This document shows, piece by piece, positions 17,498 to 55,422 of a stretch of DNA of 64,000 nt. The translations under genes were made by a program, and so were the position numbers. The stretch comes from an uncultured delta proteobacterium. GTDB lineage: Bacteria > Desulfobacterota > Desulfobulbia > Desulfobulbales > Desulfocapsaceae. The notes below the pieces were generated by a model, which had not been told where the DNA came from, made no database searches, and saw nothing but the letters and a program-made list of their open reading frames with translations. Numbering within the stretch: position 1 is the first letter of the stretch; every line of letters starts with the position of its first letter. Location: NCBI GenBank assembly GCA_903875445.1, contig CAIQWD010000069.1, positions 1 through 64,000 on the forward strand. The letters run 5' to 3'.

Positions 17498-18331
17498 TTA
17501 GATGATTTTTTCTTGTTTTTGCATGGCCTTACGCACGTCTCGCATCCGCAGCCCGATGACGCTTTCGTAAAGCTGTCCATCACTATTGAAGATATGCAAA
17601 TCAAAAACCAGTTCCTCGCCGGTCAGCGAGGTCATTGACACCCTGGTCGCGTACCCCTTGCCGGGTTGTGTCGGCCGGAAAATGCTCCGCCTTGCAAAAC
17701 CCACCGGAAAGGGTGGAAAATTGACAAATTGTTGGCCCAAAACACAGGCGGCATGCAGGGCCCCGTCGAGAGGAAAGGGCGAGCCGATAAGAGTCTGGAC
17801 AGGATCTGTAAAAGGCAGTCTTGGCGCCTTTAATTCTCCCCAGGCCTGGCCATCCGAGAGATACAGAGTTCCCTGCAAGGTCTGATAAGATCTGCCGAAG
17901 GGGACCAACTCGCGATACAGCAGCTCGGCGCTGATCTCCTTCCCGGCACCGCTCGGCGGTGCCGGGTCGATGTCGGCAGGCGGCTTCTTGTCGGTTGTTG
18001 CCGGGGGGAAATGGATTTCGCCATGCTCCTTGATTCTCGACATTGTCGCCAATTGCATATGGCTAAGCAGTTTTGCCCGGATTCGCCCATCGGCATCGGC
18101 GACACACTCAACCAGGGTCGCCACTGTTACGGCAGTGGCAGGGATCTCAAGAAATTTACCAAAGCCGGCATTTTCCATGACCCTGATATCCGTCTCCGGA
18201 TGGAGCTCCAAGCACCTGGCGGCGAGGTACAGCATGGTTTCCACCGCCGGGAGGACGATTTTACCGCCAACCGAGTGATCTTGAAACCAGGGTTGTACGG
18301 CAAGAGTGCATGAAAGACGCTCGGCGCTCAT
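17498..18331 (-). CDS. polyketide synthase-type dehydratase (double hotdog)
   Basis: This 277-residue protein looks like a stand-alone PKS dehydratase domain. The first hotdog carries the catalytic motif HxxxGxxxxP (H19, G23, P28 in DHSVGGKIVLP), and the second has the partner acid in FPLDGALHAA. It should remove water from a 3-hydroxyacyl-ACP to give a trans double bond. It overlaps the thioesterase gene by 4 bp (ATGA). Stand-alone PS-DH genes are unusual beside FabZ-like dehydratases, of which this cluster has two more. Confidence 0.8.
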   Translation of the reverse strand: MSAERLSCTLAVQPWFQDHSVGGKIVLPAVETMLYLAARCLELHPETDIRVMENAGFGKFLEIPATAVTVATLVECVADADGRIRAKLLSHMQLATMSRIKEHGEIHFPPATTDKKPPADIDPAPPSGAGKEISAELLYRELVPFGRSYQTLQGTLYLSDGQAWGELKAPRLPFTDPVQTLIGSPFPLDGALHAACVLGQQFVNFPPFPVGFARRSIFRPTQPGKGYATRVSMTSLTGEELVFDLHIFNSDGQLYESVIGLRMRDVRKAMQKQEKII

Positions 18332-18807
18332 GAATGAGGAAACTCATTCCAGAGGTTAATGGTTTTTTCGTCGATCTCCACAGGGATGTTTTTGCCGTTG
18401 ACGGCGCAGTGTCTGGTAAAGCCGGTGCAACATATCTCGCCGCTGTCGGCCCTGGTGATCACATAGTCGAATTGCAGTTTAACCAGCTCGATCTTGCCGG
18501 GCCGGGTGTGAATATACATCAGGTCGTCGTAAAAGAGCGGCGAATAATAGTTGAGTTCGGTTTTGATGATCGGATAGATATAGCCGCTTTCCTCAATTTT
18601 TTTATAGGGGTAGCGCGCTTCGCGCATCAGGGACGCCCTGCCGAATTCGAAATATTTCAGATAGTTGGCATGATAAACAACCTGCGAGCGGTCGGTATCG
18701 ACGTACAGGGTGCGGAGCTCGGAGCGATGCCAGATCTTGCCGCTGCCGGCATCTCTGACATAGCAGGGTTTTTCGAGGAATTCCGGAATAAAGGGTCGTG
18801 GTCGCAT
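18328..18807 (-). CDS. hotdog acyl-thioesterase (4HBT/YbgC type), copy 1
   Basis: This 159-residue hotdog enzyme has the 4HBT signature VDTDRSQVVYHANYLKYFE, whose Asp is the usual catalytic acid. It would hydrolyse an acyl- or aryl-ACP/CoA. The start is ATG 18805-18807, sharing one base with the ketosynthase stop (TAATG) behind a GAGGA ribosome-binding site, which decides against the longer TTG-started frame. Such a thioesterase (ApeK-like) is a regular part of aryl polyene clusters. Confidence 0.85.
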   Translation of the reverse strand: MRPRPFIPEFLEKPCYVRDAGSGKIWHRSELRTLYVDTDRSQVVYHANYLKYFEFGRASLMREARYPYKKIEESGYIYPIIKTELNYYSPLFYDDLMYIHTRPGKIELVKLQFDYVITRADSGEICCTGFTRHCAVNGKNIPVEIDEKTINLWNEFPHS

Positions 18808-20072
18808 TACATTCCTCGAAAAACGATACAGCAATTGGTGCCGCCGAAACCGAAGGAATTGGAAAGGACGAATTCGTGGGCATGCCTGCGAGCGGCATTC
18901 GGGACTACATCCAGGTCGGCGAACTCGGGGTCGGGGATATGGTTGACGGTCGGCAGGACGATTCCCCGACGCATGCTTTCAATAGCCAGGGCCGCTTCTA
19001 TGCCGGCGGAGGCGCCAAGAGAATGGCCGACCTGGGATTTATTGGACGATACCGGGATCTTTGCCAGCTGCTTGCCGAAAATAGTCCGCAGGCAGTTGAC
19101 TTCCGTGCTGTCGCCGGTAGGGGTTGAGGTGCCGTGGGCATTAACGGCGCCGATATCGGCAGGGGTTATTTCCGCATCGTCGATGGCATCGTGGATGGCA
19201 CGGACAATGGTCGCCCTGTTTGGCCGGGTAAAATGATGGGCATCCGAGTTCCAGCCGATACCGGCGATTTCCGCCCTGGGAGTCAGACCAAGGGAGCGGA
19301 CCGCATCTTCGGCGGCGAGTACCAGCACCCCGGCACCTTCAGCCAGGACAAAACCCTTGCGGTCAAGACTGAACGGCCGTGAGGCCTGAGTGGGATCCTC
19401 GGCGGCCCGGTCTTTAGGGCCGACTTTAATGGTCGCCAGCATGTTGGAAAAACCCTGAATTATTTCCGGCACGAGACAGGTCTCAACCCCGCCGGCCAGA
19501 ACAAAATCACAATCGCCGTCGCGTATCATCCGCGCACCGATACCGATGGCGTGATTTGCCGAGGCGCAGGCACCCTGCGGTGAAAAAACAGGGCCGGTAA
19601 ATCCGATGAGCATCCCGGCCTTGCCGGCCGGTAGGTTGGCGCAGACATTGGGCAGCAGATAGGGGCTGACCTTCAAGGGGCCATTGTTGACATAGTTGTC
19701 CATGGCGATTCGATACGAATCGGTGCCGTTCAGGGCGGAGCCGATCAGGCAGCCGGTTCGTGGCCCGGTCTCGGCGTTTATTTCAAGGCCTGCATGCAGA
19801 AGAGCCCGGCGGCAGACCTCCATGGTAAGAAACACATAGGAGGCGTTCCAGAGAGACGCCTCCTTACGGTTGACATAGGGGAATTGGTTCGGATCCCAAT
19901 CGGGAATCTCGCCCACCACATTGCTCCTGCTGGTGGACTGGCAGCGGGTGAGCCTGCGAAAGCCGGCGAGGCCGTTTACGGCAGCCTGCCAGGTTTTGTC
20001 AAAGGTGTTGCCGAGGGCGGTTGCAACGTCATAGCCGACAACATAGACCCTTCTGTTTTTCGGTGCCTTCAT
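18807..20072 (-). CDS. beta-ketoacyl-ACP synthase (FabF-like), KS1
   Basis: The condensing enzyme (421 aa) has the full Cys-His-His triad: C169 in GACASANHAIG, H313 in NAHGTSTPTGD and H350 in KSQVGHSLGAS, so it should be active in decarboxylative condensation. It lies 9 bp after KS2 and is coupled to the thioesterase by TAATG. It differs from a housekeeping FabF in its inserts and is one of four ketosynthases in the cluster. Confidence 0.93.
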   Translation of the reverse strand: MKAPKNRRVYVVGYDVATALGNTFDKTWQAAVNGLAGFRRLTRCQSTSRSNVVGEIPDWDPNQFPYVNRKEASLWNASYVFLTMEVCRRALLHAGLEINAETGPRTGCLIGSALNGTDSYRIAMDNYVNNGPLKVSPYLLPNVCANLPAGKAGMLIGFTGPVFSPQGACASANHAIGIGARMIRDGDCDFVLAGGVETCLVPEIIQGFSNMLATIKVGPKDRAAEDPTQASRPFSLDRKGFVLAEGAGVLVLAAEDAVRSLGLTPRAEIAGIGWNSDAHHFTRPNRATIVRAIHDAIDDAEITPADIGAVNAHGTSTPTGDSTEVNCLRTIFGKQLAKIPVSSNKSQVGHSLGASAGIEAALAIESMRRGIVLPTVNHIPDPEFADLDVVPNAARRHAHEFVLSNSFGFGGTNCCIVFRGM

Positions 20073-20081
20073 GGATGGTCT

Positions 20082-21332
20082 TCAAGCTGATTTTTTAAAA
20101 ACGGCACAGGCATTACAGCCTCCAAAGCCAAAGGAATTTTTCAGGACAAATTCCTGCAGAAGAGGACGTTTCCCCTCTGCTACGCAGTCGATCTCGATTT
20201 CCGGATCAGGCGTGTAATTGATGGTCGGAGGGAGGATACCCTCCTCTAGGCCCTGCAAGGCAAAGATGGTTTCAATAACGCTGGAGGCGCCCATGGCATG
20301 GCCGATGAGGGATTTATTGGCACTGACCGGCGGCAGCTTGTCGGCAAAAATAGCGCGCAGCGCCTCATATTCGGTTTTGTCGCCGACCTTGGTGGACGCT
20401 GCATGGGCGTTGATAGCCGCAATGTCCTCGGGGGCAAGGGCGGCATCGGCAAGGGCGTTCACCATACACTGCCTGATAGTGTCAAAATACGGGGCGACAA
20501 AATGATGGGCATCCGAGGTCATGCTCCAACCGGCCAGTTCACTGCTGTAATGCAGGCCGTGGGCCTCGGCAAATTCTCTGGTGGCAAGGATCACTGCTCC
20601 TGCCCCTTCGGCAATGACAAAACCGCGGCGATCTCTGGAAAACGGCCTGCTGGCCCTTTCCGGTGGATCCATTTCCCGGCCTTCTTTGGGGGAATAGACG
20701 CCGTTCATGGTATAGAAACCGGCGACAATCGGTTCAACCAAGGCGAAATCCACAGCCCCGCAGATGGCGACATCGGCCCTGTTCTGGGCGAAAAACATGG
20801 AAGCGATGAGCATCGAGGTAAGACCGGTGGCGCAGGCGGTGATGGTCGAGGTAATCGGCCCTTGTGCCCCGGTTTCAATGGCTATCTTGCCGCCGATCAT
20901 ATTGATGCAGGAGTTGGGGTTGGTATAGGGGTGAGGCAGTTTGTTCTCGGCTTGCAGGCGTCTATCGGCGGCGAGGACTGCGTCGAGGCCGCCGATCGCC
21001 GAGCTGTAGGTGACTGCCGTTCGTGGCGCTATCGCAGGGCTTATCTCTATGCGGCTGCGTTTAAGCGCCCTTGCAACCGTCAGCAGGGAGTATTTAAAGA
21101 CCGGCGAACTCCAAGCCGCCTGATGCCGGGCGGAAAGGAAAGGATAGTCTTCATGGTCGATGTTCGGCACCTGGCCGGCAATGTGCACCGGAAAACCGTC
21201 GGGGAGGGGGAAGCGGGTCAGTGGGCCGATGCCGCTTTTGCCTGCAAGGGCTTTTTGCCACTGCTCCGGCAGGGTATTCCCAAGAGGAGAAATGGCATCG
21301 TAGCCAACAATGACCGCATCCTTTTTCCCCAT
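20082..21332 (-). CDS. beta-ketoacyl-ACP synthase (FabF-like), KS2
   Basis: This 416-residue ketosynthase keeps the catalytic triad: C167 in TITACATGLTSM, H310 in NAHAASTKVGD and H345 in KSLIGHAMGAS. It is a paralogue of KS1 directly upstream of it. Two adjacent ketosynthases may pair as a heterodimer, as KS pairs do in aryl polyene systems, though both keep Cys here, so neither is a classical chain-length factor. Confidence 0.93.
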   Translation of the reverse strand: MGKKDAVIVGYDAISPLGNTLPEQWQKALAGKSGIGPLTRFPLPDGFPVHIAGQVPNIDHEDYPFLSARHQAAWSSPVFKYSLLTVARALKRSRIEISPAIAPRTAVTYSSAIGGLDAVLAADRRLQAENKLPHPYTNPNSCINMIGGKIAIETGAQGPITSTITACATGLTSMLIASMFFAQNRADVAICGAVDFALVEPIVAGFYTMNGVYSPKEGREMDPPERASRPFSRDRRGFVIAEGAGAVILATREFAEAHGLHYSSELAGWSMTSDAHHFVAPYFDTIRQCMVNALADAALAPEDIAAINAHAASTKVGDKTEYEALRAIFADKLPPVSANKSLIGHAMGASSVIETIFALQGLEEGILPPTINYTPDPEIEIDCVAEGKRPLLQEFVLKNSFGFGGCNACAVFKKSA

Positions 21333-21334
21333 GA

Positions 21335-22333
21335 TTACCAGGGAATAAACTGATACAGCTTGGCAAACATCTCGTAAACCTCAATCCAATTCTGCAGATC
21401 CTTGGTAGTTTTGATATGCGCCCGTTTGTTGACCATGACCCAACTCATATGCGCTGCACCATCCTTGCAGGTGGAGCAGTCACGGGTTTCCGAGGTACAG
21501 CAGCGATGCATGGTCTGCAGTTCCGAGGACCAGCGAATGAAACTGATCAACCTCTTGGGACGGGGATTTCGTTTGTCGAGGGGCTCGGTTACCGAAGGGC
21601 ATTCCATCCAGCCAAACGACCGGCCGAGCATTTTCCCGGTAGTGATGACCTCGTGGTAGTATTTGGAGGAAATCACCGTCTCCGGGTAGGCGTCGAGCAT
21701 ACTGTCCATCTCCGCACGCACCGCTATCAGCTCTTCCGGTTGCCAGGAAAAGCCGTCGACCTTTTCGTCGTTGGACAGGAGTTGCATGTGCACCTTGAGG
21801 CCGACGTCACGGATCTTGCCGATAATTTTTTCGGTCTTGCCGAGCTGTTTCGGGGTAATGGTATAGAGGTAGTAGGCGTGCGGATCTCCTGCGTAGTTGG
21901 CGCTGGAGATCTTGAAGGTGTCCTTGCCGCGGAGGATTGTTTCATCTTCGGCATCGCCCCAGAGGGAGATGCCGACCATCATGTCGGGGAAGCGATCCCG
22001 GGGCACTTTAATCAGGCCATTGGTGGCACAAAAAGTCGGCAACTTCTTATAAAAGGCTTCAACCCGGTCAAGGCAGAGGGTCGGTTCGCCGCCGATGAGA
22101 ATAGCCAGATTCACCCCGCGGTCCATCTCCTTGGTGACGAAGGCATGCCATTTGCCCACATCGTTTTCCTCGGCAGCCACCTCGTGTTCGCCAGAGGAGA
22201 AAAAGAAGCAACCTTTGCAGCGCAGGTTGCAGCGGTTGGTCACATCATAGATGGAACTGCGGATATTGAGCTTTGAGATATTTTTATACCGCTCGTACCA
22301 GGGTTCATCAAGGAGGGAACTGACTGTTTTCAT
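21335..22333 (-). CDS. radical SAM enzyme with C-terminal Cys cluster, copy A
   Basis: This 332-residue radical SAM protein has the cluster motif CNLRCKGC (C35, C39, C42) and lacks a B12-binding N-terminus. Near the C-terminus it carries a second Cys group (HRCCTSETRDCSTC) that could hold an auxiliary iron-sulfur cluster. GGEPTL after the first strand is the usual SAM-binding GGE motif. It is a close paralogue of the next gene, lies 2 bp from KS2, and is embedded among acyl-chain genes, so it probably modifies an acyl or ACP-bound substrate. Confidence 0.88.
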   Translation of the reverse strand: MKTVSSLLDEPWYERYKNISKLNIRSSIYDVTNRCNLRCKGCFFFSSGEHEVAAEENDVGKWHAFVTKEMDRGVNLAILIGGEPTLCLDRVEAFYKKLPTFCATNGLIKVPRDRFPDMMVGISLWGDAEDETILRGKDTFKISSANYAGDPHAYYLYTITPKQLGKTEKIIGKIRDVGLKVHMQLLSNDEKVDGFSWQPEELIAVRAEMDSMLDAYPETVISSKYYHEVITTGKMLGRSFGWMECPSVTEPLDKRNPRPKRLISFIRWSSELQTMHRCCTSETRDCSTCKDGAAHMSWVMVNKRAHIKTTKDLQNWIEVYEMFAKLYQFIPW

Positions 22334-22340
22334 AATTTTG

Positions 22341-23396
22341 CTAAGTGGTTGGAGGCGGACTGATAAAGGTATTGCAGAGGTTCAGCCCCTTTTCATATCC
22401 TCTGACCCAGACGGCAAGATAGGTATCTACATAGTCAAGCCAGGCGGAAAAGGTCACGGGATCGGTGGCGTGACGATACATTCTGGCGGTGACGACGGCA
22501 CTGCCCGCCGCATAATGCCGGCAGTCATGGCAATCGGTATCCGGCACGCAGCAGGCGGCATTACGATCCCATTGCAGATCGGTGCGATACTGCCTGAATG
22601 ATCTGCCAAGGCCGATGTCCGTCGACGGGTTCATGCGTGGATAGGAACAGGAAAAAAGATCATGCAAACCAAGTTGTTCGGTATGGGCTACGATATTGTA
22701 TGGCGAAAAGATCACCGTCTGCGGATAGCCTGTCAGCAGTTCGCTCATCATCGACCGGGTTTTTTTCAAGCTTTCCGGGGTGTGACGGAGATGGCCCTGG
22801 TAGCCGACCGGTGCCGAGAACATGTTGAAGGTAATGTGCTGGCCGTTATCAGCCAGGAGTTCGGTTACCTCTTTCGCCTCCTCGATGTTTTCCGGCGTGA
22901 AGGTGTAGACGAAAACCGCCCTGGGGTCATCCTTATAGTTCACCATCTGCCTGGCAAGCATGTCCTTTGCCCGGCGGATGGTTTGGCTGGTGCTATCGTT
23001 GCCCCAAACGGAGATATGAATCCGGTAATCGATTTCCCGCGGAATCGTTTTAAGGCCGTTCGTGGCAATTGCGCCAAGAGGAATCACCTTATAACAAATG
23101 GCACAGAGATGCGGCACCAGCGAGGGTTCGGCACCGGCTAGGACGGCGAAGGTGATGCCGCGCGCTTTTTCCGATTGAAGGAGCTGCCGCCAGGCATTTT
23201 CGTCGGTATTTTCAGGGGCGAACTGCTTCTCACCGGTGAAATAATAACAGCCTTCACAACGAATATTACAGCGGTTGCTCATGTCATAGGTGGATTCGCG
23301 CAGAAAAAAATAGCGGCGAACCTTTTCCCAACGCTCTCTGATCAGCGGGTCGGCGATGATATCGGAGAATTTGTATTCCTGCGGCCGGGTGGACAT
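22341..23396 (-). CDS. radical SAM enzyme with C-terminal Cys cluster, copy B
   Basis: This is a paralogue of copy A (351 aa) with CNIRCEGC (C43, C47, C50) and the matching C-terminal group AACCVPDTDCHDC. The GGE motif of copy A reads AGAEPSL here, a change in the SAM-binding region. The two genes are 7 bp apart and follow an ACP gene whose stop abuts this start. A paired function (two steps on one chain, or a heterodimer) is plausible but not shown. Confidence 0.88.
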   Translation of the reverse strand: MSTRPQEYKFSDIIADPLIRERWEKVRRYFFLRESTYDMSNRCNIRCEGCYYFTGEKQFAPENTDENAWRQLLQSEKARGITFAVLAGAEPSLVPHLCAICYKVIPLGAIATNGLKTIPREIDYRIHISVWGNDSTSQTIRRAKDMLARQMVNYKDDPRAVFVYTFTPENIEEAKEVTELLADNGQHITFNMFSAPVGYQGHLRHTPESLKKTRSMMSELLTGYPQTVIFSPYNIVAHTEQLGLHDLFSCSYPRMNPSTDIGLGRSFRQYRTDLQWDRNAACCVPDTDCHDCRHYAAGSAVVTARMYRHATDPVTFSAWLDYVDTYLAVWVRGYEKGLNLCNTFISPPPTT

Positions 23397-23663
23397 CTAT
23401 TCTTTGCTATTCTGTTTGTCGAGGATGTACTGGGCAATGATGCGCACAGAGGTCAGTTTGGGATAATCATCCTCGTCGATCCTGATCCCGTATTCATCTC
23501 GCAGAACCAGGGCGACGGTTGCCAGATCCATGGAGTCGACCCCAACCTCATCGATCAAGTCAAGGTCGGGATTGAAGGTTTCAGGGGTAACATCTTCAAG
23601 TTTCAGTTCATTGATGATGATTTCGGCGATTCGTGTGATGGTCTGCTTGATATCGTTACTCAT
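23397..23663 (-). CDS. acyl carrier protein
   Basis: The 88-residue ACP has its phosphopantetheine serine in GVDSMD (S44) and the common acidic helix II. The start is ATG 23661-23663 (MSNDIKQ), overlapping the upstream hotdog gene by 8 bp; the longer open frame upstream is that gene's shadow. It directly precedes the paired radical SAM genes, which suggests that it may present their substrate. Confidence 0.9.
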   Translation of the reverse strand: MSNDIKQTITRIAEIIINELKLEDVTPETFNPDLDLIDEVGVDSMDLATVALVLRDEYGIRIDEDDYPKLTSVRIIAQYILDKQNSKE

Positions 23664-24000
23664 GAATTCGTGTTTTTTTGTTTTGGGTGAATTGCATTTT
23701 GCCGGAACAAACATCCTCGTTCCCGCTGGTAATCTTGAAGATAAAGTGATTTTTCGTAGTGTCGCATCTGACTTGAATATCGAGTTGTTCTTCGGGTCGG
23801 ACAATTTTTCTGAATTTAACCCGGCTTAAACCCGCCATGCACCCATCGCCCGCTCCAGATTTTCTAAGAAGATCGACAACCATTTTTAACTGCGCAATTC
23901 CAGGCAGAATCGGATTGTTGGGAAAATGGCCGGAAAACCAGGGAGAATTGCCTTCAGTTATCACGGACACGGTTGTCTCGGATACTTCCATCTTTCTCAT
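23656..24000 (-). CDS. FabZ/ApeI-like hotdog dehydratase with a changed catalytic acid
   Basis: This 114-residue hotdog protein carries the dehydratase motif GHFPNNPILPG with the catalytic His at H25. In FabZ and ApeI the acid lies five residues after the PG; here that place reads Lys (GIAQLKM, K39). It is therefore either impaired, uses another acid, or works as a partner subunit. It is the first gene of the long minus-strand operon that runs to 14159 and overlaps the ACP gene by 8 bp. Confidence 0.75.
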   Translation of the reverse strand: MRKMEVSETTVSVITEGNSPWFSGHFPNNPILPGIAQLKMVVDLLRKSGAGDGCMAGLSRVKFRKIVRPEEQLDIQVRCDTTKNHFIFKITSGNEDVCSGKMQFTQNKKTRIHE

Positions 24001-24430
24001 CCAATCAACAACTCAATACTAAATACAATACAGTATCTTGGTTAAATACAAAAAGTATCTCAAGGTTGGGAACATCTCCCGTCGTTGCCGGTATCCCGGC
24101 TTTGTCGGCAGGGGTGCAAACGTATACCACTTGGGCTGGAAATATACAACAGGTAAGCAAATACAGAAAGTTCCTTTTCCTGCCGACACCTATACTAGGT
24201 GTGTAATGCATTGACATGAAAAAGTATATTTCATCGCAGGCCCGGCAATTTTAACATCTTCGTGATATTTTACAAGTATAATTTCCTTGAGGTAACTGAC
24301 CGGCTTTACTGGTGGAAAAGAGAAGTTTGACATTTCCTGAACTCATTGTTCTTCCAGTCAATGCATACTTTCTCAGGGTGTGGTAATAAAGATGAAAAAT
24401 TTGCTCTCGATAAGGGATGGAAAAACTACT
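24001..24430. promoter_or_regulatory. divergent upstream region of the main lipid operon and the methyltransferase gene
   Basis: These 430 bp hold no convincing gene. Close to the minus-strand start lie two AGTATCT copies, at 24032-24038 and 24054-24060, spaced exactly 22 bp (two helix turns), which looks like a repressor or activator site. AT-rich stretches fit a promoter here but no clean -35/-10 pair was found. The middle (24085-24190) has several GC-rich short palindromic bits that could fold in RNA. Confidence 0.4.
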
Positions 24431-25111
24431 ATGAAGCGAATTCCCGAACCGGAACTGATGAATGATCCTAAACAGGTCGCCATCTACGCAGGCCCTTATC
24501 TTGACAGCGCCTGCTGGCTGTTTATTCAACGCTTTCGAAAATATTTCCCCGGCCTGGTACCAACCGATGCAATTCTTGATCTTGGGTGCGGCCCGGCCGC
24601 CATCCCTCTGGCCCTGGCTGGACATTTCCCGCATTGTGAGATACATGGTGTCGAGGGGGCTCCCCGCATGCTGGCCTATGGCAAGGAGGCTGTGCAACGT
24701 AAAGGTTTGGAAAAACAGGTGCATCTTTTCCATGGTATCCTGCCGAGCACTTTTCCTCTGCCACGCGAACGCTATGAGGTGGTTATTTCCAACAGCTTTT
24801 TGCACCACCTTGCCGATCCCATGGTTTTGTGGAATGCCATCCTTAAATATGGCCAGACGTATGCAGCGATTTTGATCATTGACCTGCTGCGACCAACAAG
24901 CGAAGAAGCAGCTGAGTTTGTGGTTGACACATATATCCCGGATGCCCCGCCATTGTTGCGTAAGGACATGCTGCTCTCACTTCGTGCCGCATATACCCTG
25001 GATGAGGTAACTGCTCAATTACAGAAAGCAAATCTGGCTGAAAATCTTACTCTCACCATGGCCTCGCCGTTCCAGTTTGCGGCCCACGGCTATCTCTGCA
25101 AAGAGAGTTGA
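24431..25111 (+). CDS. class I SAM-dependent methyltransferase
   Basis: The protein shows the methyltransferase motif I AILDLGCGPAAIPLAL and a downstream acidic strand end (HGVEGAP), followed by VVISNSFLHHL. I start it at ATG 24431 (MKRIPEPELMNDP), because this beginning is a recurring form in the family; ATG codons at 24392 and a non-ATG at 24380 are alternatives. About 226 residues. The substrate is unknown. It is co-directional with the U32-like gene 22 bp later and lies opposite to the lipid operon. Confidence 0.8.
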   Translation: MKRIPEPELMNDPKQVAIYAGPYLDSACWLFIQRFRKYFPGLVPTDAILDLGCGPAAIPLALAGHFPHCEIHGVEGAPRMLAYGKEAVQRKGLEKQVHLFHGILPSTFPLPRERYEVVISNSFLHHLADPMVLWNAILKYGQTYAAILIIDLLRPTSEEAAEFVVDTYIPDAPPLLRKDMLLSLRAAYTLDEVTAQLQKANLAENLTLTMASPFQFAAHGYLCKES

Positions 25112-25133
25112 ACCGTATTAAAAAGAGAAATCA

Positions 25134-26333
25134 ATGAAACTGAGCGTTGCTGCAAATTGGGATATGGAGTTGTTGGAAGGTCTGGCGGAAATCCCCGAGG
25201 TAACTTCGGTCTACGCCAAGTTGCCTTTCGATATAGTGGGAGGGGGTAGAGCTGGGATGGTAATACCCTCGGTGGATTGGGAATCCGCCGTAGCCTATAT
25301 TCGTGCAGCCCATGACCGCGACCTGTCCTTCTGCTACCTCATCAACGCCCCCTGCCTCGGCAATCTTGAACAAACCCAGGAAGGCAAAAAACAAATATTG
25401 AGCTTCATTGGACAACTGGTCGAGATAGGTGTCGACAGCGTATCGATCGCTAATTTGGCCGTATTGTCGCTGGTGCATCGTAATTTCCCGCATCTGGCTA
25501 TCCGTGGCAGCGTCCTCAGTTGGCCGACCAATCTTTCACGACTCAAGTACCAGGAATCTCTTGGTGTCGATCCGCTGATCATCCCCTACAGCGAGTTCAA
25601 TCGTGATTTTAAGATGCTGAGCAAAATCCGTTCCGGGCTCTCATGTGGCATGCAACTGTTCGTCAACGTCTCATGTATCTATAACTGTCACTACCTTGCC
25701 GAACATGCGTCCAGCGTGGGACACGCTTCTCAGTTGGAACACAAGACTCGGCAGGTGAGTTTTTTTCTTGATTCCTACCTCTGGCAATGTACGCGACGTC
25801 GTCTGTTGCACCCGGAACTCCTGCTGATGAGTCGTTGGATTCGTCCCGAAGATCTCCATGTATACGAAGCGCTGGGCTTTGATGAATTTAAGATTATCGA
25901 TCGTTCTCGCTCCACAGCTTGGCTGTTGCGTGCCGCCAAGGCGTACGCCGATCGGCGCTACGAAGGGAATCTGCTGGACATCCTTTCGCTCGAAATGCTC
26001 GGTGATCCGGGCGGTTTCCACAGTGATATAGACAATCAGGTGCGTGAGCGCATGCGACACTACGGCAAAGAGGAACGGCATCTCATGCTGCGCATGCTTA
26101 AATTGCGGCGGCGACTCCTGACATTTGATCTCTCTATCGATAATGCTGAATTAACGGACTTCTTGGCTGGCTTTCAGAAAATTCGCTGCGCCGAAACATA
26201 CTGCGAGGATTGCCGCTACTGTCACCGATATGCCGAACGTGCCGTCCGCTTTGACCGCGCGGAAGCCGAGGTGCTGGCAAAGGATATCAACGACTTACTG
26301 GAAGATTCCATGACGCTAGGTTCTTTCGGGTAA
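25134..26333 (+). CDS. peptidase U32/UbiU-UbiV-like protein
   Basis: This 399-residue protein resembles the U32 family (YhbU/YhbV, UbiU/UbiV, RlhA), whose members bind a 4Fe-4S cluster and act in O2-independent hydroxylation or RNA modification rather than proteolysis (family knowledge). Cysteines occur in two groups: CGMQLFVNVSCIYNC (about 169-183) and CAETYCEDCRYC near 350. The N-terminal TIM-barrel-like alternation (FCYLINAPCLGN, IRGSVLSWPTNLSR) supports the call. An O2-independent hydroxylation of the pathway product is a speculative but attractive role. Confidence 0.65.
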   Translation: MKLSVAANWDMELLEGLAEIPEVTSVYAKLPFDIVGGGRAGMVIPSVDWESAVAYIRAAHDRDLSFCYLINAPCLGNLEQTQEGKKQILSFIGQLVEIGVDSVSIANLAVLSLVHRNFPHLAIRGSVLSWPTNLSRLKYQESLGVDPLIIPYSEFNRDFKMLSKIRSGLSCGMQLFVNVSCIYNCHYLAEHASSVGHASQLEHKTRQVSFFLDSYLWQCTRRRLLHPELLLMSRWIRPEDLHVYEALGFDEFKIIDRSRSTAWLLRAAKAYADRRYEGNLLDILSLEMLGDPGGFHSDIDNQVRERMRHYGKEERHLMLRMLKLRRRLLTFDLSIDNAELTDFLAGFQKIRCAETYCEDCRYCHRYAERAVRFDRAEAEVLAKDINDLLEDSMTLGSFG

Positions 26334-28472: not shown

Positions 28473-28766
28473 CTATCTCAACTCAAGACGAAGCTCACGC
28501 CCCACAAACGCGGCAGCACGTTGAAGAGTCTCGATTGTGATGTTTCCTTTAGCCTTAAGAATCCGGTCAATCTGTGCGCGGCTCGTATGCATCTGCTCTG
28601 CCATCTGCGTTTTAGTAATGCCTTTTTTGAGCATTTCTTCCGCAATCTGCCATGTGATTACGCGTGTCACTGCCTCAATCTTCGCGGATTCATAGATACC
28701 CTCTTCTTTCAGGAAATCATCGAGCGTTGAACCACAATGTCTGTTTTTTTTGCTTTTCTCGCTCAT
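28473..28766 (-). CDS. HigA-like XRE antitoxin, module 1
   Basis: This 97-residue DNA-binding protein has a helix-turn-helix of the XRE/Cro type (KTQMAEQMHTSRAQIDRIL). It should neutralise and repress a HigB/RelE-type toxin. Its ATG overlaps the toxin remnant stop (ATGA). The toxin in front of it has lost its 5' half, so this antitoxin is orphaned. It is about 45% like the module 2 antitoxin by eye. Confidence 0.8.
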   Translation of the reverse strand: MSEKSKKNRHCGSTLDDFLKEEGIYESAKIEAVTRVITWQIAEEMLKKGITKTQMAEQMHTSRAQIDRILKAKGNITIETLQRAAAFVGRELRLELR

Positions 28767-28999: not shown

Positions 29000-29293
29000 T
29001 TATTGAAGCTCAAGGCGAAGCGTACGCCCCATTGCTTTTGCAGCTCGTGAAAGAGCTGCAAGGGTCACTTTGTCGTTATCAGGATCAAGCAAGCGGTCAA
29101 GTTGAGAACGGCTTGTTTTAAGTTGTTTGGCCATTTCAATTTTATTAATCCCGCTTTCCTTCATGGCCGCCGCGAGTTGGTGAGCAATAACCCGCTTTAC
29201 GGCTTGTTCCGTTGTTTCTTCGTAGGTGCCTTGTTCTTTCAAAAAATCACTGAAAGAACCCCCAACACGGCCTTTTTCAATTTCCTTATTCAT
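29000..29293 (-). CDS. higA: HigA-like XRE antitoxin, module 2
   Basis: This 97-residue antitoxin has an XRE helix-turn-helix (KIEMAKQLKTSRSQLDRLL). It is translationally coupled to its toxin (ATGA at 29290-29293), with the toxin gene first, the usual order in higBA systems. It probably represses its own promoter at the palindrome 29653-29670. Confidence 0.87.
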   Translation of the reverse strand: MNKEIEKGRVGGSFSDFLKEQGTYEETTEQAVKRVIAHQLAAAMKESGINKIEMAKQLKTSRSQLDRLLDPDNDKVTLAALSRAAKAMGRTLRLELQ

Positions 29294-29643
29294 GGCTTTA
29301 GTCCTTTCATTCTTTTTACGGCAACCGCTAATTCGTAATCTGGCGTTTTTTGGCTTTTCTTGATGAATCCGTGCAAAAGCACCATATATCCTTCATGCGC
29401 ACAGAAAAACACCCTTGCTATTCGTCCGCCTGATAGGTTTACGCGGACTTCCCATAATCCCTTGTGTCCCTTAAGGGATTGACACAGGGGCATACCCACA
29501 GGCCAACCAAATTCAGCAACTCGAATATCATCTCCTACAGTTTTTCGGTCCTCAGGCGGCAGTTCTAAGAGCCATTCCCTGACCGGCATGCGCCCAAATT
29601 CTGTTTCAAAGAATCTTGCGGGTAATATTTTAAAGCTGTCCAT
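29290..29643 (-). CDS. higB: HigB/RelE-superfamily toxin (phage Gp49-like), module 2
   Basis: This 117-residue ribosome-dependent mRNA interferase-type toxin shows the family pattern LKGHKGLWEVRVNLSGGRIARVF and the C-terminal HGFIKKSQKTP. The start is ATG 29641-29643; a TTG two codons upstream is less likely. It is complete, unlike the module 1 copy. Confidence 0.85.
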   Translation of the reverse strand: MDSFKILPARFFETEFGRMPVREWLLELPPEDRKTVGDDIRVAEFGWPVGMPLCQSLKGHKGLWEVRVNLSGGRIARVFFCAHEGYMVLLHGFIKKSQKTPDYELAVAVKRMKGLKP

Positions 29644-29652
29644 ACACAAATA

Positions 29653-38372: not shown

Positions 38373-39908
38373 TTATTTTGCCACGTTCTCCAATTTCGTG
38401 TTCAATCGTGCTTCCTTATTGGCAAAGTCGTAATAATGCCAGTATTGCACCATTATCGATATTGCCCTGGAAATGAGGCGTGGATTGATACGCCACGCCT
38501 TTCTCAGCACCTTCCAGAACATTCGCCGCACCCTGGTCGGGACTTTGAAATTAAAATGATATACTATGCGAATAATTAGCGGGATGCGGTGCAAGGTCTT
38601 CCTGCGGGTCGAGTAAAGTTCGGTGAAATAGCTGATGCCTGCCAACCAGGCAATAATTCGGCGCTCGAAATTCTCTGGATCGTAAATGCGCTTAAAGAGG
38701 TTTTTATGGCCGGTGTATAGCTCTTCCAGGGTCATATTTTTCGGAATGATGTTGGTGGTCAGGTGCCAGAATCCGCGAAAATCCTCAACCAGGCGATTTT
38801 CTTTTGCCATGCGCTCGTAGAGGGGCGTGTTTTTCGGGGCGTTGAGTACGCTGACCGAGGCGATAGGGCTTGCCGTATCTTCGAGATATTTTTCAACATC
38901 AGTGAAAACCTCGGAAGTATCGTGATCAAAGCCGACGATCATGCCGATAAACGGCACAATCCCGTAACTCGATATGCGCGGGATCACCTCGTAGGGATCG
39001 TATTGAAACATCTGACCCTTATTCACCTCATCAAGGCATTCCTTCTTGGTTGTCTCAAGGCCAATGAATATGACGCTGAAGCGGGCATCGGCAAGCAGTT
39101 TCAGGATCTCTTCATCGGCGCCGATCTTCACCGTCGCCTGGGTGCTGAAGGAAAGGGGACTTGAAAGGGTCCGGTTCCAGGTGATGATCTCGGTGAGAAG
39201 ATCCGTTGTGAATATTTTGTTTACATAGAAATTGTCATCTGAAAAGAATACCGTCTCGGCGCCGGCGGCCTGGGCATTCTGCACCTCACGCATGATATGC
39301 GCTATTGGTTTGCTCCGGTATTTTCTGCCGATGACCCGCACAACGTCGCAGAAGTCGCAATTATTCGGGCATCCCCGGCTGGTTTGGACGGAAAAATAGA
39401 GATAGTTCCGGGCGTTGATATACCTTAGGTCAGGCGCCGGGCTGTCTGCCATTTTAATAAAGTCCAGCTGTTCATAAACGGCCCCGGCCTTGCCTGCGAC
39501 CCACTCAAGGAGAAATCTCGGCCAGGTATATTCGGCCTCGCCGATGAACAGGTAATCGGCAATTGCTTCAACCGCTTTCGGGTCAATCGTCGCGTATATC
39601 CCTCCGACCGCCACGGAAACGCCCCGCTCCCGAAAGCGTTGGCAGATCTCCTGCATACGCTCGAACTGCAAGGTGTAGCCGGTAACGCCCACTAGATCAC
39701 ATTCGATATCCCAGTTAATGCGGTCAACGTTCTCATCACAATAAATGTATTCAATGTCGAGGTCGGGTGGGGTGAGGGCGATCAAGGTGAGGAGGGCTGC
39801 ATTGGGCATAAGGGTCTTATGTTTGCCCGCTATATCGATAGCCCCCTGCATGGCCCAGAAATTTTCCGGACATTTCGGATTGACGAGGTAGATGCGCTTT
39901 TTTCCCAT
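38373..39908 (-). CDS. B12-binding-type radical SAM enzyme (DUF4070-like C-terminus), copy 2
   Basis: This 511-residue enzyme has a cobalamin-binding-like N-terminus (residues about 1-140, with VGVTGYTLQ and VGGIYAT) and a radical SAM core with CPNNCDFC (C180, C184, C187). The long C-terminal region resembles the DUF4070 extension seen in hopanoid methylase-like enzymes. It lies 37 bp behind the LpxL-like acyltransferase gene and ends the 47147-38373 minus-strand operon. A methylation or C-C bond step on the lipid is inferred. Confidence 0.86.
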   Translation of the reverse strand: MGKKRIYLVNPKCPENFWAMQGAIDIAGKHKTLMPNAALLTLIALTPPDLDIEYIYCDENVDRINWDIECDLVGVTGYTLQFERMQEICQRFRERGVSVAVGGIYATIDPKAVEAIADYLFIGEAEYTWPRFLLEWVAGKAGAVYEQLDFIKMADSPAPDLRYINARNYLYFSVQTSRGCPNNCDFCDVVRVIGRKYRSKPIAHIMREVQNAQAAGAETVFFSDDNFYVNKIFTTDLLTEIITWNRTLSSPLSFSTQATVKIGADEEILKLLADARFSVIFIGLETTKKECLDEVNKGQMFQYDPYEVIPRISSYGIVPFIGMIVGFDHDTSEVFTDVEKYLEDTASPIASVSVLNAPKNTPLYERMAKENRLVEDFRGFWHLTTNIIPKNMTLEELYTGHKNLFKRIYDPENFERRIIAWLAGISYFTELYSTRRKTLHRIPLIIRIVYHFNFKVPTRVRRMFWKVLRKAWRINPRLISRAISIMVQYWHYYDFANKEARLNTKLENVAK

Positions 39909-43321: not shown

Positions 43322-44679
43322 TTTTTGAGAAGCCGGACAATGGCTGTCCAGTCATATTTACCGTTTTTGGTTACCGGAATCCGTTCAACTTTTTTTATGC
43401 GACGCGGCAGGGCGTAGGCTTCAAGGTTAAGGGCCAGGCTTTTTTTAATTGCCTTGCTATTGGCCGCATCGCCCTCTATCAAAGCGACGATGCAGTGTTC
43501 GCGTCCGCCTGTTTCGGGCAGGGCCATGACCACACAGTCGCTCACTCCCGGTTCCTTTTTAATGAGAAGGCTAACCTCTTCAAGATCGACTCGCTTACCG
43601 CCCACCTTGGTGACGGTATCTATCCGACCCTGGAGGGAGAATTGGTCGGTGCCTTCGGCTTCCACCCGATCGCCGGTGGTAAAGAAACCGGCTGCATCGA
43701 CCGGCAGTTCTGGGGAAATAAAGGGGGAGTGGACGGCCAGGCGAGAATCGATGATTTTCCACTGAATCGGCGAAAAGGGGGTGAAGAACTCTTCGCCCTG
43801 CGATCTGTTTCTCGTGGCAATGCCACCGGTTTCGGTGGAACCGTAAACCTCGACAATGCCATGCGCATTCTGTCTGCAAAACATCTCATTGTCTTCTCTG
43901 TCCAGCATGCCGGCCGAGGAAAAGGCAAGGCGCAGAGACATCTTTTTATGCCGCAAGACCCGGTAATGCACCGGGACGCTGGCGAGAACAGTAGCCTTCT
44001 GGGCATTAGCGCTAGCTACAATCTCGTTGGGAAAAGATGGCGTTTCGCCTACGACAGTCGCCGAAGAAACAAGCGGCAGGATAACCGAATAAAGCAATCC
44101 GTAGATATGGTAGGGCGAGACGGTCGCCAAAATGCAATCATGTTCCGTCACGGCAAAACGCTTTGCCAGGAAAAAACCTTCGCCGAAAAGATTCTCGGCG
44201 GTTTTCGACCAGACCTGCGGCGTGCCGGTGGAGCCGCCGGTGAAAATGCGCAGCAATTCCGATTGCGGCAAGGCCCGCGGCGTGAGCGGCATCTTGGTAA
44301 ACCCTGGTGCTTGCGGGCAGAGCACTTTTACTCCTTCCGGAAAGTCTCTGGTTGTATCGGCAATGGCGGTTGTGAAGCCCGTAGTTTGCTGCAGTTGGGC
44401 AAGGGCATTGGCGGAAAAAGCATAGGGCAGCAAGAGGGTGGGGCCACCGCCAAGAGAGGCGAGGAGTGCAGCAGCCATTATCGCCTTGTCTTCGGCGGCC
44501 AGACAGACGGCTGCCGGTTGTTGCATTTCGGCAAAGGCAATACGCAAATCGACTGCCATTTTATATACTTCGCCAAAGGTGGCACCGGCCCGAACAAATT
44601 CCTTGTCCGGGTATCTGGGCCCCTGCAGCAAGTTCTGCAGGGCATTATCAAGGCTATTTGTCGAATAATGCGCTGTCAT
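43318..44679 (-). CDS. AMP-forming acyl/aryl ligase (ApeH-like)
   Basis: This 453-residue member of the ANL family adenylates a carboxylic acid and passes it to CoA or ACP. It has the P-loop TGGSTGTP (147-154), YGSTETGG (279-286), the TGDR motif and the C-terminal catalytic lysine in NGKYDW (K441). It is short for a CoA ligase and resembles the aryl polyene AMP ligases that load the aromatic starter. It overlaps the radical SAM gene by 26 bp. The best substrate guess is the arylacrylate made by the ammonia-lyase at 15524-17116. Confidence 0.87.
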   Translation of the reverse strand: MTAHYSTNSLDNALQNLLQGPRYPDKEFVRAGATFGEVYKMAVDLRIAFAEMQQPAAVCLAAEDKAIMAAALLASLGGGPTLLLPYAFSANALAQLQQTTGFTTAIADTTRDFPEGVKVLCPQAPGFTKMPLTPRALPQSELLRIFTGGSTGTPQVWSKTAENLFGEGFFLAKRFAVTEHDCILATVSPYHIYGLLYSVILPLVSSATVVGETPSFPNEIVASANAQKATVLASVPVHYRVLRHKKMSLRLAFSSAGMLDREDNEMFCRQNAHGIVEVYGSTETGGIATRNRSQGEEFFTPFSPIQWKIIDSRLAVHSPFISPELPVDAAGFFTTGDRVEAEGTDQFSLQGRIDTVTKVGGKRVDLEEVSLLIKKEPGVSDCVVMALPETGGREHCIVALIEGDAANSKAIKKSLALNLEAYALPRRIKKVERIPVTKNGKYDWTAIVRLLKK

Positions 44680-45946
44680 CTTCCCTGTTTACCGTCCTGC
44701 CGAAGGATTGTCCGGCAAGGCTTCTGTCGCGTGGCCTGAAGGTGTTGCCATCCATTTCTCTTTTTACGACCTGCTTGAACAGCTTGGCCATTTTAATTCG
44801 TTGCGGCTCTTCATGATAAAAGGTGTTCCAGGCATAATCAAGCAGCCCCTGGAGTTTTTCCGGGCTCATATGCTTTGGCTGAAAGACCACCTGGTCGGCG
44901 GAAAAATCATTCCAATCATGGGAGAGGATGCGGTTTTGCCGGTTCAGTTCGTCATAGGCTTTGGTGTGCGGAAAGGGGGTGAGGACGGTGAATTCGGCAA
45001 GGTCAAGCTCAATCTCAAGGAGGAAATCGATGAAACGTTTGATAAAATCCTCGGTGTGCGTGTCGAGCCCCAGTAAAATTGTGCCTTCCACCATGATGCC
45101 GTGGTCGTGGTAGCGTTTGATCCGTTCCTTGATATAGTCGGAGGTGTCGAAGACCGCCTGATAAACGTACCAGGCCCCGGCCCGGGCCGCTAGATCGAGG
45201 ACCTCCGGCTTGTCTTCGATGGGATGCGAACACCAGTTCTTCTTCAGGGGAATCATCTCGCGAAACAGCTCCATTTCCCATTTGGTGTCCTGGGCCAGGG
45301 AGTTGTCGACGATGAACAGCCGGTTATTGTTGATTCCGGCCATCTCGGCCACGGCCTTGTCAATGGGGCGGGGGCGAAAGGCTCTGCCCCCTAGATAGGA
45401 TACGGCACAGGGATAGCAATTAAAGCGGCAACCGCGCGAGGCATGCACCAGATCAACCATCTGCACGCCTTTATGGTTGTAGAGTTTGCGGTTGAGGATA
45501 TCCCGGCGTGCCGGACCAACCAGGGCTATATCCGGGCGTTGGTTGATATAATCATAGCAAGGCTGTAATTTGTTATGCCGGAAGTCGTCGAGCACCTGCT
45601 CCATCCGTCCTTCGGCTTCACCTAAAAAAACCGCGTCGGCGTGCTCCATGGTTTCTTCGGCGTGGAGCATAGTGGCAATGCCGCCGAAGATGACCTTGAT
45701 GCCTCTTTTACGGTAGGTGTCGGCTATTTCCCAGCCTCTTTTTACCTGAATTGTAAGCATCATGGAGATGCCGACCAGATCGACCGCCTCGTCAAAATCA
45801 ATGGCCTGCAGATTCTCATCGACAAAATCGACGTCGACATAATCGGGAAGGGTGGCGGCAAAGACTACCGGGCCATGCGGCGGCAGATGAAACTCGGTTT
45901 GTCGGTCGAGTTTCGACCATTTCGGATAGATAAGTTTAAATTTCAT
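44654..45946 (-). CDS. B12-binding-type radical SAM enzyme, copy 3
   Basis: This enzyme has 430 residues from ATG 45944-45946 (MKFKLIYPKW); a start 12 codons upstream would lie in the ketoreductase end. The N-terminal 125 residues are cobalamin-binding-like (VGISMMLTIQ, FGGIATML). The core carries CRFNCYPC (C173, C177, C180), with Pro in place of the usual aromatic before the last Cys. It is located between the ketoreductase and the ligase, so it may act on an early intermediate. Confidence 0.86.
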   Translation of the reverse strand: MKFKLIYPKWSKLDRQTEFHLPPHGPVVFAATLPDYVDVDFVDENLQAIDFDEAVDLVGISMMLTIQVKRGWEIADTYRKRGIKVIFGGIATMLHAEETMEHADAVFLGEAEGRMEQVLDDFRHNKLQPCYDYINQRPDIALVGPARRDILNRKLYNHKGVQMVDLVHASRGCRFNCYPCAVSYLGGRAFRPRPIDKAVAEMAGINNNRLFIVDNSLAQDTKWEMELFREMIPLKKNWCSHPIEDKPEVLDLAARAGAWYVYQAVFDTSDYIKERIKRYHDHGIMVEGTILLGLDTHTEDFIKRFIDFLLEIELDLAEFTVLTPFPHTKAYDELNRQNRILSHDWNDFSADQVVFQPKHMSPEKLQGLLDYAWNTFYHEEPQRIKMAKLFKQVVKREMDGNTFRPRDRSLAGQSFGRTVNREDDSALFDK

Positions 45947-45965
45947 TTTCAATGAGAGTTTTTTG

Positions 45966-46703
45966 CTAAAACATTCCGCCATTAACGGAAATTACCTGGC
46001 CGGTGACGTAGGAGGCGGCATCCGAGCAAAGAAAGCCGACGACCCTGGCAACCTCTTCCGGCCTGCCGATACGGGCCATGGGGATCAAGGTCTTGATGTG
46101 ATCTTTTGGGGCTTCTTGAATCATGGCGGTTTCGATCAGGCCTGGTGCCACGACATTCATACGGATGCCGAGGCGCGCGACCTCGGTTGCGACCGACCTG
46201 GAAGCCGCATTCAGACCGGCTTTGGCCGCCGAATAGTTGGCCTGGCCACGGTTGGCCATAAGTGAGCTGGCGGAGGAAATGGAGACAATGGACCCCTTGC
46301 GCCTGCGCACCATCTTTTCGATCACCGGCCGGGTCATGTTATAAAAGCCGGTCAAGGTGGTGTCGATGACCGACTGCCAATTTTTTGCCGGCATCATCAT
46401 GAACAAGCCGTCGGCGATGATGCCGGCGTTGTTGATGAGGACATCGATTCTCCCGAGTCGTTCAGCAATATCCGCGACCGCCTTTTCCGTTGCCTGGCCA
46501 TCCCTGACATCGAACTGATAAATTTCACCTTGGCCACCAAGCTGTACGACCGTCGCCAAGGTCTGTTCCGCCCCGTTTTTATCACTCATGTAGTTGATTA
46601 CGGTGTAGTATCCTTGCTGCGCCAGCTCAAGGCAGATGGCCCTGCCGATTCCCTTGCTGCCGCCGGTGATAATGGCAATTTTCCCTTCGTCTGAATCCGT
46701 CAT
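45966..46703 (-). CDS. 3-oxoacyl-ACP reductase (FabG/ApeQ-like)
   Basis: This NADPH-dependent ketoreductase of the short-chain dehydrogenase family has TGGSKGIG (13-20), NNAG, and the triad S144, Y157, K161 (ANYSAAKAG). It reduces the 3-keto group after each condensation and is the only ketoreductase in the cluster. I use ATG 46701-46703; a GTG nine bases upstream abuts the preceding stop and would also work. 245 aa. Confidence 0.93.
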   Translation of the reverse strand: MTDSDEGKIAIITGGSKGIGRAICLELAQQGYYTVINYMSDKNGAEQTLATVVQLGGQGEIYQFDVRDGQATEKAVADIAERLGRIDVLINNAGIIADGLFMMMPAKNWQSVIDTTLTGFYNMTRPVIEKMVRRRKGSIVSISSASSLMANRGQANYSAAKAGLNAASRSVATEVARLGIRMNVVAPGLIETAMIQEAPKDHIKTLIPMARIGRPEEVARVVGFLCSDAASYVTGQVISVNGGMF

Positions 46704-53964: not shown

Positions 53965-55422
53965 ATGCAACAGAACGGAACAACCATTCTTCTCGTCCAT
54001 CCCCTCGGCTATAGCGCGAAACAAGCGGGCAGCGATATCTCCCGGGTGGCCAACATCATGCCGCCGCTCGGCCTTGCCTCCATTTCCGCCTACCTTACCG
54101 CCCATGGCTTGCGGAACGATATCATCGACTGTTACGCCCACCCCGACGCCGGTGACCGGATCATTGCCTATCTGCAGGCCGAGAACTCGGCATTTATCGG
54201 TTTTTCCTGCACCACCTCAAGTTTTTTCGATGGGGAGCGGCTGGCGCGTTTGGCTAAAAGCATCCAACCGGGAATTCGCGTGGTCTTCGGTGGGGTGCAC
54301 GTCTCCGCTGTCAGGGAGGCGGTCCTCGACGCCTACCCGGTGATCGACTATGCGGTGGTCGGCGAAGGCGAGGAAACCCTGAGAGAGTTGCTGGCAACCC
54401 CGGAAGAAAGGCGGAATGCAGTGGAAGGGCTGGTCTTGCGCGGTGCGGACGGCAAGGCCTTCTTCACTGGGCGGCGGGGAAAACTTCTTGACCTCGATAG
54501 CCTGCCTTTCCCCGACTATAAAAAATTGGCAGGCTACCCTGAATCCTACACCCTGCCCATCTTCAACTATCCGAAAGCCCCGAACGGCAGCTGTATCTCC
54601 AGCCGCGGCTGCCCCTACGCCTGCAGCTACTGTGACCGCTCGGTTTTCGGCAGGACCTTTCGCTATAATTCCGCCGGCTACCTGTACCGCCATGTGCTCT
54701 TTTTGAAAGAGACCTATGGGCTCCGCCATCTCAATTTCTATGATGACCAGTTTACCTTCAACCGCCAACGGGTGGTGGATTTCTGCCGGATGGTCATGGG
54801 AAAACCGCTCGGCATGACCTTTAATTGTGCAGCCAGGGCCGAGCACCTCGACTTTGAACTGCTGCAACTGATGAAGGCGGCCGGCTGCTGGATGATCAGC
54901 CTGGGAATCGAGACCGGCGATGAGTTGCTGCTCGCCGCCCATCGACAAAATGTCGATCTGCAGATGATGCGGGATAAAATAGCCCTGATCAAAAAGGCGG
55001 GAATACGGGTCAAAGGCCTGTTGATGATGGGTTTACCCGGCGAGACCGAGGCCAGCATCAAAAAGAGCAAGGCCTATGTTTTTTCTCTGCCCATCGACGA
55101 TTTCAATCTCTCCAAGTTCACCCCCTTTCCCGGTTCGCCGGTGTATAAACAGATTAAAGAGGCGGGCGAGACCATGGGAACCTTCATGGAGGACTGGGAG
55201 AAGATGGACTGCATGGCCTTCCAGTTTGTGCCGCGGGGGATTGAACTGGCCAGGATGGAAGAACTGTTCATCGACTTTTACCGCAGCCATTTTCAACGCC
55301 CCCGGGTCATCTGGGGCTATGTGGCGATGCTCTGGAAATCCCCGGACAGCTGGTTGCGCTTTCTCGGTAATCTATCTTCTTTTATCAGATTTGTCGCCAC
55401 CAATAAGAGAATCGGCGGGTAG
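53965..55422 (+). CDS. B12-binding-type radical SAM enzyme, copy 4
   Basis: This 485-residue enzyme has a B12-binding-like N-terminus (MPPLGLASISAYL, GFSCTTSSF, VFGGVHVSA, VVGEGEETLREL). Its radical SAM core carries CPYACSYC (C216, C220, C223), and the later SLGIETGDE and MGLPGETE match the group that includes lipid- and cofactor-methylating enzymes. It is the last gene of the plus-strand export operon. Confidence 0.86.
   Translation: MQQNGTTILLVHPLGYSAKQAGSDISRVANIMPPLGLASISAYLTAHGLRNDIIDCYAHPDAGDRIIAYLQAENSAFIGFSCTTSSFFDGERLARLAKSIQPGIRVVFGGVHVSAVREAVLDAYPVIDYAVVGEGEETLRELLATPEERRNAVEGLVLRGADGKAFFTGRRGKLLDLDSLPFPDYKKLAGYPESYTLPIFNYPKAPNGSCISSRGCPYACSYCDRSVFGRTFRYNSAGYLYRHVLFLKETYGLRHLNFYDDQFTFNRQRVVDFCRMVMGKPLGMTFNCAARAEHLDFELLQLMKAAGCWMISLGIETGDELLLAAHRQNVDLQMMRDKIALIKKAGIRVKGLLMMGLPGETEASIKKSKAYVFSLPIDDFNLSKFTPFPGSPVYKQIKEAGETMGTFMEDWEKMDCMAFQFVPRGIELARMEELFIDFYRSHFQRPRVIWGYVAMLWKSPDSWLRFLGNLSSFIRFVATNKRIGG

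Follow-up and report, generated by a model that had tools for sequence, protein, structure and literature searches.

Two adjacent genes on the minus strand of the window (the whole stretch of 64,000 nucleotides analysed here) encode two members, A and B, of one uncharacterised radical SAM family that consists of the core and a C-terminal cysteine extension. A and B form a real, phylum-wide pair of distantly related enzymes that is kept together almost everywhere, in a probable polyene-lipid gene cluster of anaerobes of the sulfate-reducer type, and they fall into two fixed classes that carry GGEP or GAEP at the SAM-binding site. From the gene context we consider it about an even chance that each of them catalyses its own radical step on an (aryl) polyene chain carried by an ACP, where we infer both the ACP-bound substrate and the separateness of the steps. 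No characterisation of the A/B pair itself was found in the literature.

Gene B (22341..23396, minus strand, 351 aa, with an identity of 60% or more among the compared loci) is located upstream of gene A (21335..22333, minus strand, 332 aa, with an identity of 70% or more throughout the phylum) with 7 bp between them. The preliminary description had placed both ORFs at these positions, packed between an ACP and a ketosynthase, and this holds: the acyl carrier protein ACP2 (23397..23663, minus strand; Pfam PP-binding) lies directly upstream of B with its ORF end (23397) abutting the B start, and the end of A is 2 bp away from the start of KS2 (21332). On the minus strand the cassette is arranged as ApeI/FabZ-like dehydratase (23656..24000; Pfam ApeI-like, 2e-9), ACP2, B, A, KS2 (20082..21332) and KS1 (18807..20072), both FabF-like ketosynthases, a YbgC/FadM-type thioesterase (18328..18834; TIGR00051 above cut-off) and a PKS-type dehydratase (17498..18331; Pfam PS-DH), with few-base gaps or overlaps between the genes. 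The position of B/A after ACP2 is fixed in most loci, and counted over 90 loci, many of which end early so that all counts are lower bounds, ACP2 accompanies B/A in 82/90, the ApeI/FabZ-like dehydratase is found in 78/90, KS2 in 73/90, KS1 in 65/90, the thioesterase and the PKS-type dehydratase in 60/90 each, a TIGR04072-like gene in 50/90 and an ammonia-lyase in 3/90.

The radical SAM superfamily hallmark CxxxCxxC is invariant in A, B and their single-copy relatives. It provides the radical SAM cluster ligands C35, C39 and C42 in A (22208..22231, minus strand) and C43, C47 and C50 in B (23247..23270, minus strand), and the shared N-terminal CNxRCxGC described before is seen as CNLRCKGC and CNIRCEGC, respectively. 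Both proteins are divergent members: against Pfam PF04055, a convenient test that does not by itself define the superfamily, they reach 23.6 and 22.3 bits, below the cut-off of 29.5, with E values of 6.7e-5 and 1.6e-4, and no curated family in Pfam or NCBIfam names A or B beyond weak core-domain matches. The SAM-binding motif is GGE in A (residues 81-83, 22085..22093, minus strand) and is replaced by GAE in B (residues 88-90, 23127..23135, minus strand). It had been reported as GGE against AGAE; IGGEP and AGAEP are confirmed and the in-register change is GGE to GAE. Among 207 distinct sequences GGEP is present in 99/99 A, AGAEP in 102/102 B and AGAEP in 6/6 single-copy proteins, in a set selected by a filter that demanded GGEP or GAEP together with CC..C..C and could hide exceptions; matches collected by similarity only show the same motif pattern with 0 exceptions. 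As a comparison, 30 further radical SAM loci were inspected in the genome that carries the window, and the approximately 10 with a recognised typical xGxE(P/A) carry GGE and never GAEP.

At the C-terminus A possesses CC-x6-C-x2-C (C278, C279, C286 and C289; 21467..21502, minus strand) and B CC-x5-C-x2-C (C282, C283, C289 and C292; 22521..22553, minus strand), both invariant and corresponding to the previously noticed cysteine group, which reads CC-x5-DC-x2-C in A and CC-x4-DC-x2-C in B. A fifth conserved cysteine (C245 in A, C250 in B) had been missed, and the complete pattern is C-x32-CC-x6-C-x2-C in 99/99 A, C-x31-CC-x5-C-x2-C in 102/102 B and C-x20/21-CC-x5-C-x2-C in the single-copy relatives. 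CxxxCxxC and the C-terminal cysteines are retained in 207/207 distinct family members examined; a loss of the latter in most homologues, named earlier as a result that would count against the description, was seen in no member. In A there is also an invariant cysteine beside ATNG, and some A proteins hold only nine cysteines, which are exactly the conserved set. The C-terminal cysteines of A and B are probable ligands of a single auxiliary Fe-S cluster, which with five conserved cysteines would correspond to the Twitch type. The cysteine order of SPASM domains is CX2CX5CX3C. This order is not found in A and B, which show C..CC-x5/6-C-x2-C, and a SPASM family match was absent for both at E 0.01 among the Pfam and NCBIfam matches.

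AlphaFold2 models reached a mean pLDDT of 88.5 for A and 81.8 for B, with the B model being least certain around the C-terminal cysteines (block pLDDT ~41-58). The closest solved folds to the A model are BlsE, SkfB, SuiB, anSME and viperin (Z 14.5-17.5), and the B model has the same nearest solved radical SAM folds with similar scores. The best fold match to A, the cytosylglucuronate decarboxylase BlsE (PDB 7vob; Z 17.5, rmsd 3.8, 261 residues), contains a GGEP motif as A does but shares only 15% identity and belongs to a different pathway. The sporulation killing factor maturase SkfB (PDB 6efn) is second-best for A and best for B, within 1 Z of BlsE, and of the solved structures it also gives the best match by sequence profile (E 1.8e-12 and 3.1e-13), limited to the radical SAM core (profile 27-179). 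SkfB matures a peptide, however, whereas A and B are located among acyl-chain genes.

Using A as query, A-type genes were detected in 36/97 relatives, 28/395 genomes of the phylum and 48/93 genomes of the family, three samples that overlap. From the distinct genomes with A, ~77/80 also contain B, normally adjacent, and it is therefore not the case that the two never occur together elsewhere, which the preliminary description had named as a result that would count against it. The three exceptions are all draft genomes: the contig of G504 ends within A, G048 shows no more than a short piece that perhaps belongs to B, and G494 (88% complete) has A and KS2 but not B, on a contig where the genes upstream are unrelated. 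In a scan of named genomes, the best 80 of 312 relatives are mostly Desulfobacterota and some Spirochaetes and Myxococcota bins with the pair, and Janthinobacterium with a single copy. The proposed search for species with one copy led to Janthinobacterium LM6 and G113, both with GAEP and without A. In the Janthinobacterium locus (L066 5908-9440) the single-copy gene is immediately followed by an MBOAT acyltransferase and a protein that matches no Pfam family, and neither ACP nor KS was found among its neighbours. Genome G177 contains, in addition to the usual pair, a second A without B that adjoins ACP2 and a B12 radical SAM gene (L053, G177:C330).

A and B are 30% identical over 324 aa (BLASTP, E 3e-46), which is far beyond chance and in agreement with their first description as a tandem paralogous pair. 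In the phylogenetic tree A, B and the single-copy type each form one clade, and with distant radical SAM proteins as the root the single-copy type falls together with B (97/91), although the outgroup branches are very long. The duplication suggested earlier is therefore upheld only in part: A and B are related and in tandem, but their clades are old and separate and the single-copy relatives group with B and not outside A+B, leaving a recent tandem duplication unsupported. The division of labour suggested together with it is supported by the two fixed, separate motif classes. Both genes are under strong purifying selection with dN/dS values of 0.02-0.09 for A and 0.05-0.15 for B, which are rough as several dS are near 1, and in a comparison of six cassette proteins A shows the strongest conservation (mean distance 0.263). 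B is thus not decaying, and the fixation of GAEP in B and in the single-copy relatives argues against decay as well, so that this possibility is ruled out. That A and B are redundant after a recent tandem duplication and that B is heading for loss could be argued from their 30% identity and the tandem arrangement, but with old clades, motifs fixed over the phylum and a dN/dS of B of at most 0.15 we find it scarcely credible.

With regard to the function of GAEP, alanine replacement of each residue of G73G74E75P76 in BlsE abolished activity in all mutants, among them G74A with the motif GAEP (PMC3715490), whereas B carries GAEP naturally. As noted in the same study, BioB carries AAW at the position of the BlsE GGEP with equivalent function (PMC3715490). 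By analogy, the natural GAEP of B suggests an altered SAM binding. Since BlsE G74A is inactive, it is possible that SAM is not cleaved by B, which could either bind it in another way or act in a role without cleavage. The weakened SAM binding considered earlier for one copy would agree with the BlsE mutant, while the fixed GAEP of B and of the single-copy relatives speaks against decay. The single-copy GAEP relatives without A suggest that GAEP proteins have their own function. Tentatively, and with more doubt than confidence, we propose that the B lineage with its fixed GAEP either cleaves SAM in an altered geometry or is a SAM-binding, non-cleaving partner, and that together with A it modifies ACP-bound polyene chains by radical chemistry. 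A residue change that inactivates a studied radical SAM enzyme is here the fixed natural state of a whole lineage, which allows a direct test of how the motif controls SAM binding.

In the preferred reading the cassette with its ApeI/FabZ-like dehydratase, ACP2, KS2, KS1, thioesterase and dehydratase would build a polyene-like chain on a dedicated ACP anaerobically. A and B would be two non-interchangeable enzymes of one radical SAM family, A with a canonical SAM site and B with a permanently altered one, each modifying the chain on the ACP, or the acid released from it, in a radical step of its own. It is also conceivable that they form an obligate A:B heterodimer, with the radical chemistry carried out by A while B, its SAM site being crippled, serves as scaffold or relays electrons, as might be expected from the near-constant pairing and from the fact that all 102 B proteins carry the motif of the inactive BlsE G74A mutant (PMC3715490). 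Yet GAEP single-copy relatives exist without any A, the second A in G177 has no second B, A and B are 7 kb apart in Desulfobacter vibrioformis and have KS2 between them in G171, and all cluster cysteines are kept in B. Rate covariation does not point to a specific A:B complex either, as the A-B partial correlation is ~0 after removing the other cassette genes, compared to 0.44 for KS2-KS1. Such mirror-tree statistics are weak evidence either way, and the vanished covariation speaks slightly more for separate steps than for a tight complex. Taken together, we regard the heterodimer as unlikely.

The cassette resembles aryl-polyene and ladderane-type systems in its ApeI-like dehydratase, its FabF-like ketosynthases and the B12-binding radical SAM protein of the ladderane-type family TIGR04072 (14159..15508, minus strand), which scores 608 bits against a cut-off of 360, with the corresponding genes in two other loci scoring 414 and 393 bits. 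The window also contains an aromatic ammonia-lyase, a 4-coumarate-CoA-ligase-like enzyme and an RND/MMPL-like transporter, all of which, like the ApeI-like dehydratase, are shared with aryl polyene (Ape) clusters, but its ammonia-lyase is located outside the conserved cassette. The Ape gene set is not known to contain a counterpart of A or B. Three further ORFs in the window (38373-39908, 44654-45982 and 53965-55422) resemble B12-type radical SAM proteins.

Clusters of FASII and radical SAM genes have been described by Rattray 2009 in Kuenenia and Desulfotalea psychrophila and also in other deltaproteobacteria, with the radical SAM pairs Kuste3343/DP1855 and Kuste3342/DP1853 in the comparison (PMC2649909). 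The cassette is likened to them by gene content, as they are anaerobic and FASII-like and combine several ketosynthases, ACPs and FabZ with radical SAM genes, plus one for a B12 radical SAM protein. Expression of kuste3342 and kuste3343 in E. coli gave no detectable protein, and no ladderanes were obtained (PMC4790861). That A and B make strained rings in a ladderane-like cyclisation, as proposed for the anammox radical SAM genes, would fit the TIGR04072 gene beside the cassette and the published synteny of the anammox and Desulfotalea clusters including their radical SAM genes (PMC2649909). Nevertheless, we think this very improbable, as Desulfotalea psychrophila was found to produce polyunsaturated hydrocarbons but no ladderanes (PMC2649909) and the context in the window is aryl-polyene-like. 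As two separate enzymes, A and B would mark two as yet unassigned steps of a polyene/ladderane-type lipid pathway that is widespread among anaerobes.

At 24380-26333 (plus strand), in divergent orientation to the cassette, the window encodes a methyltransferase together with a U32-type protein weakly similar to UbiU/TrhP, and such a pair is also located beside the cassette in a second locus (L062); it is possible that they represent an O2-independent hydroxylase and methylase pair. Further along, inspection by eye revealed two similar HTH-type ORFs (28473-28766 and 29000-29293, minus strand) and a small ORF resembling a RelE/HigB-type toxin (29290-29649, minus strand).
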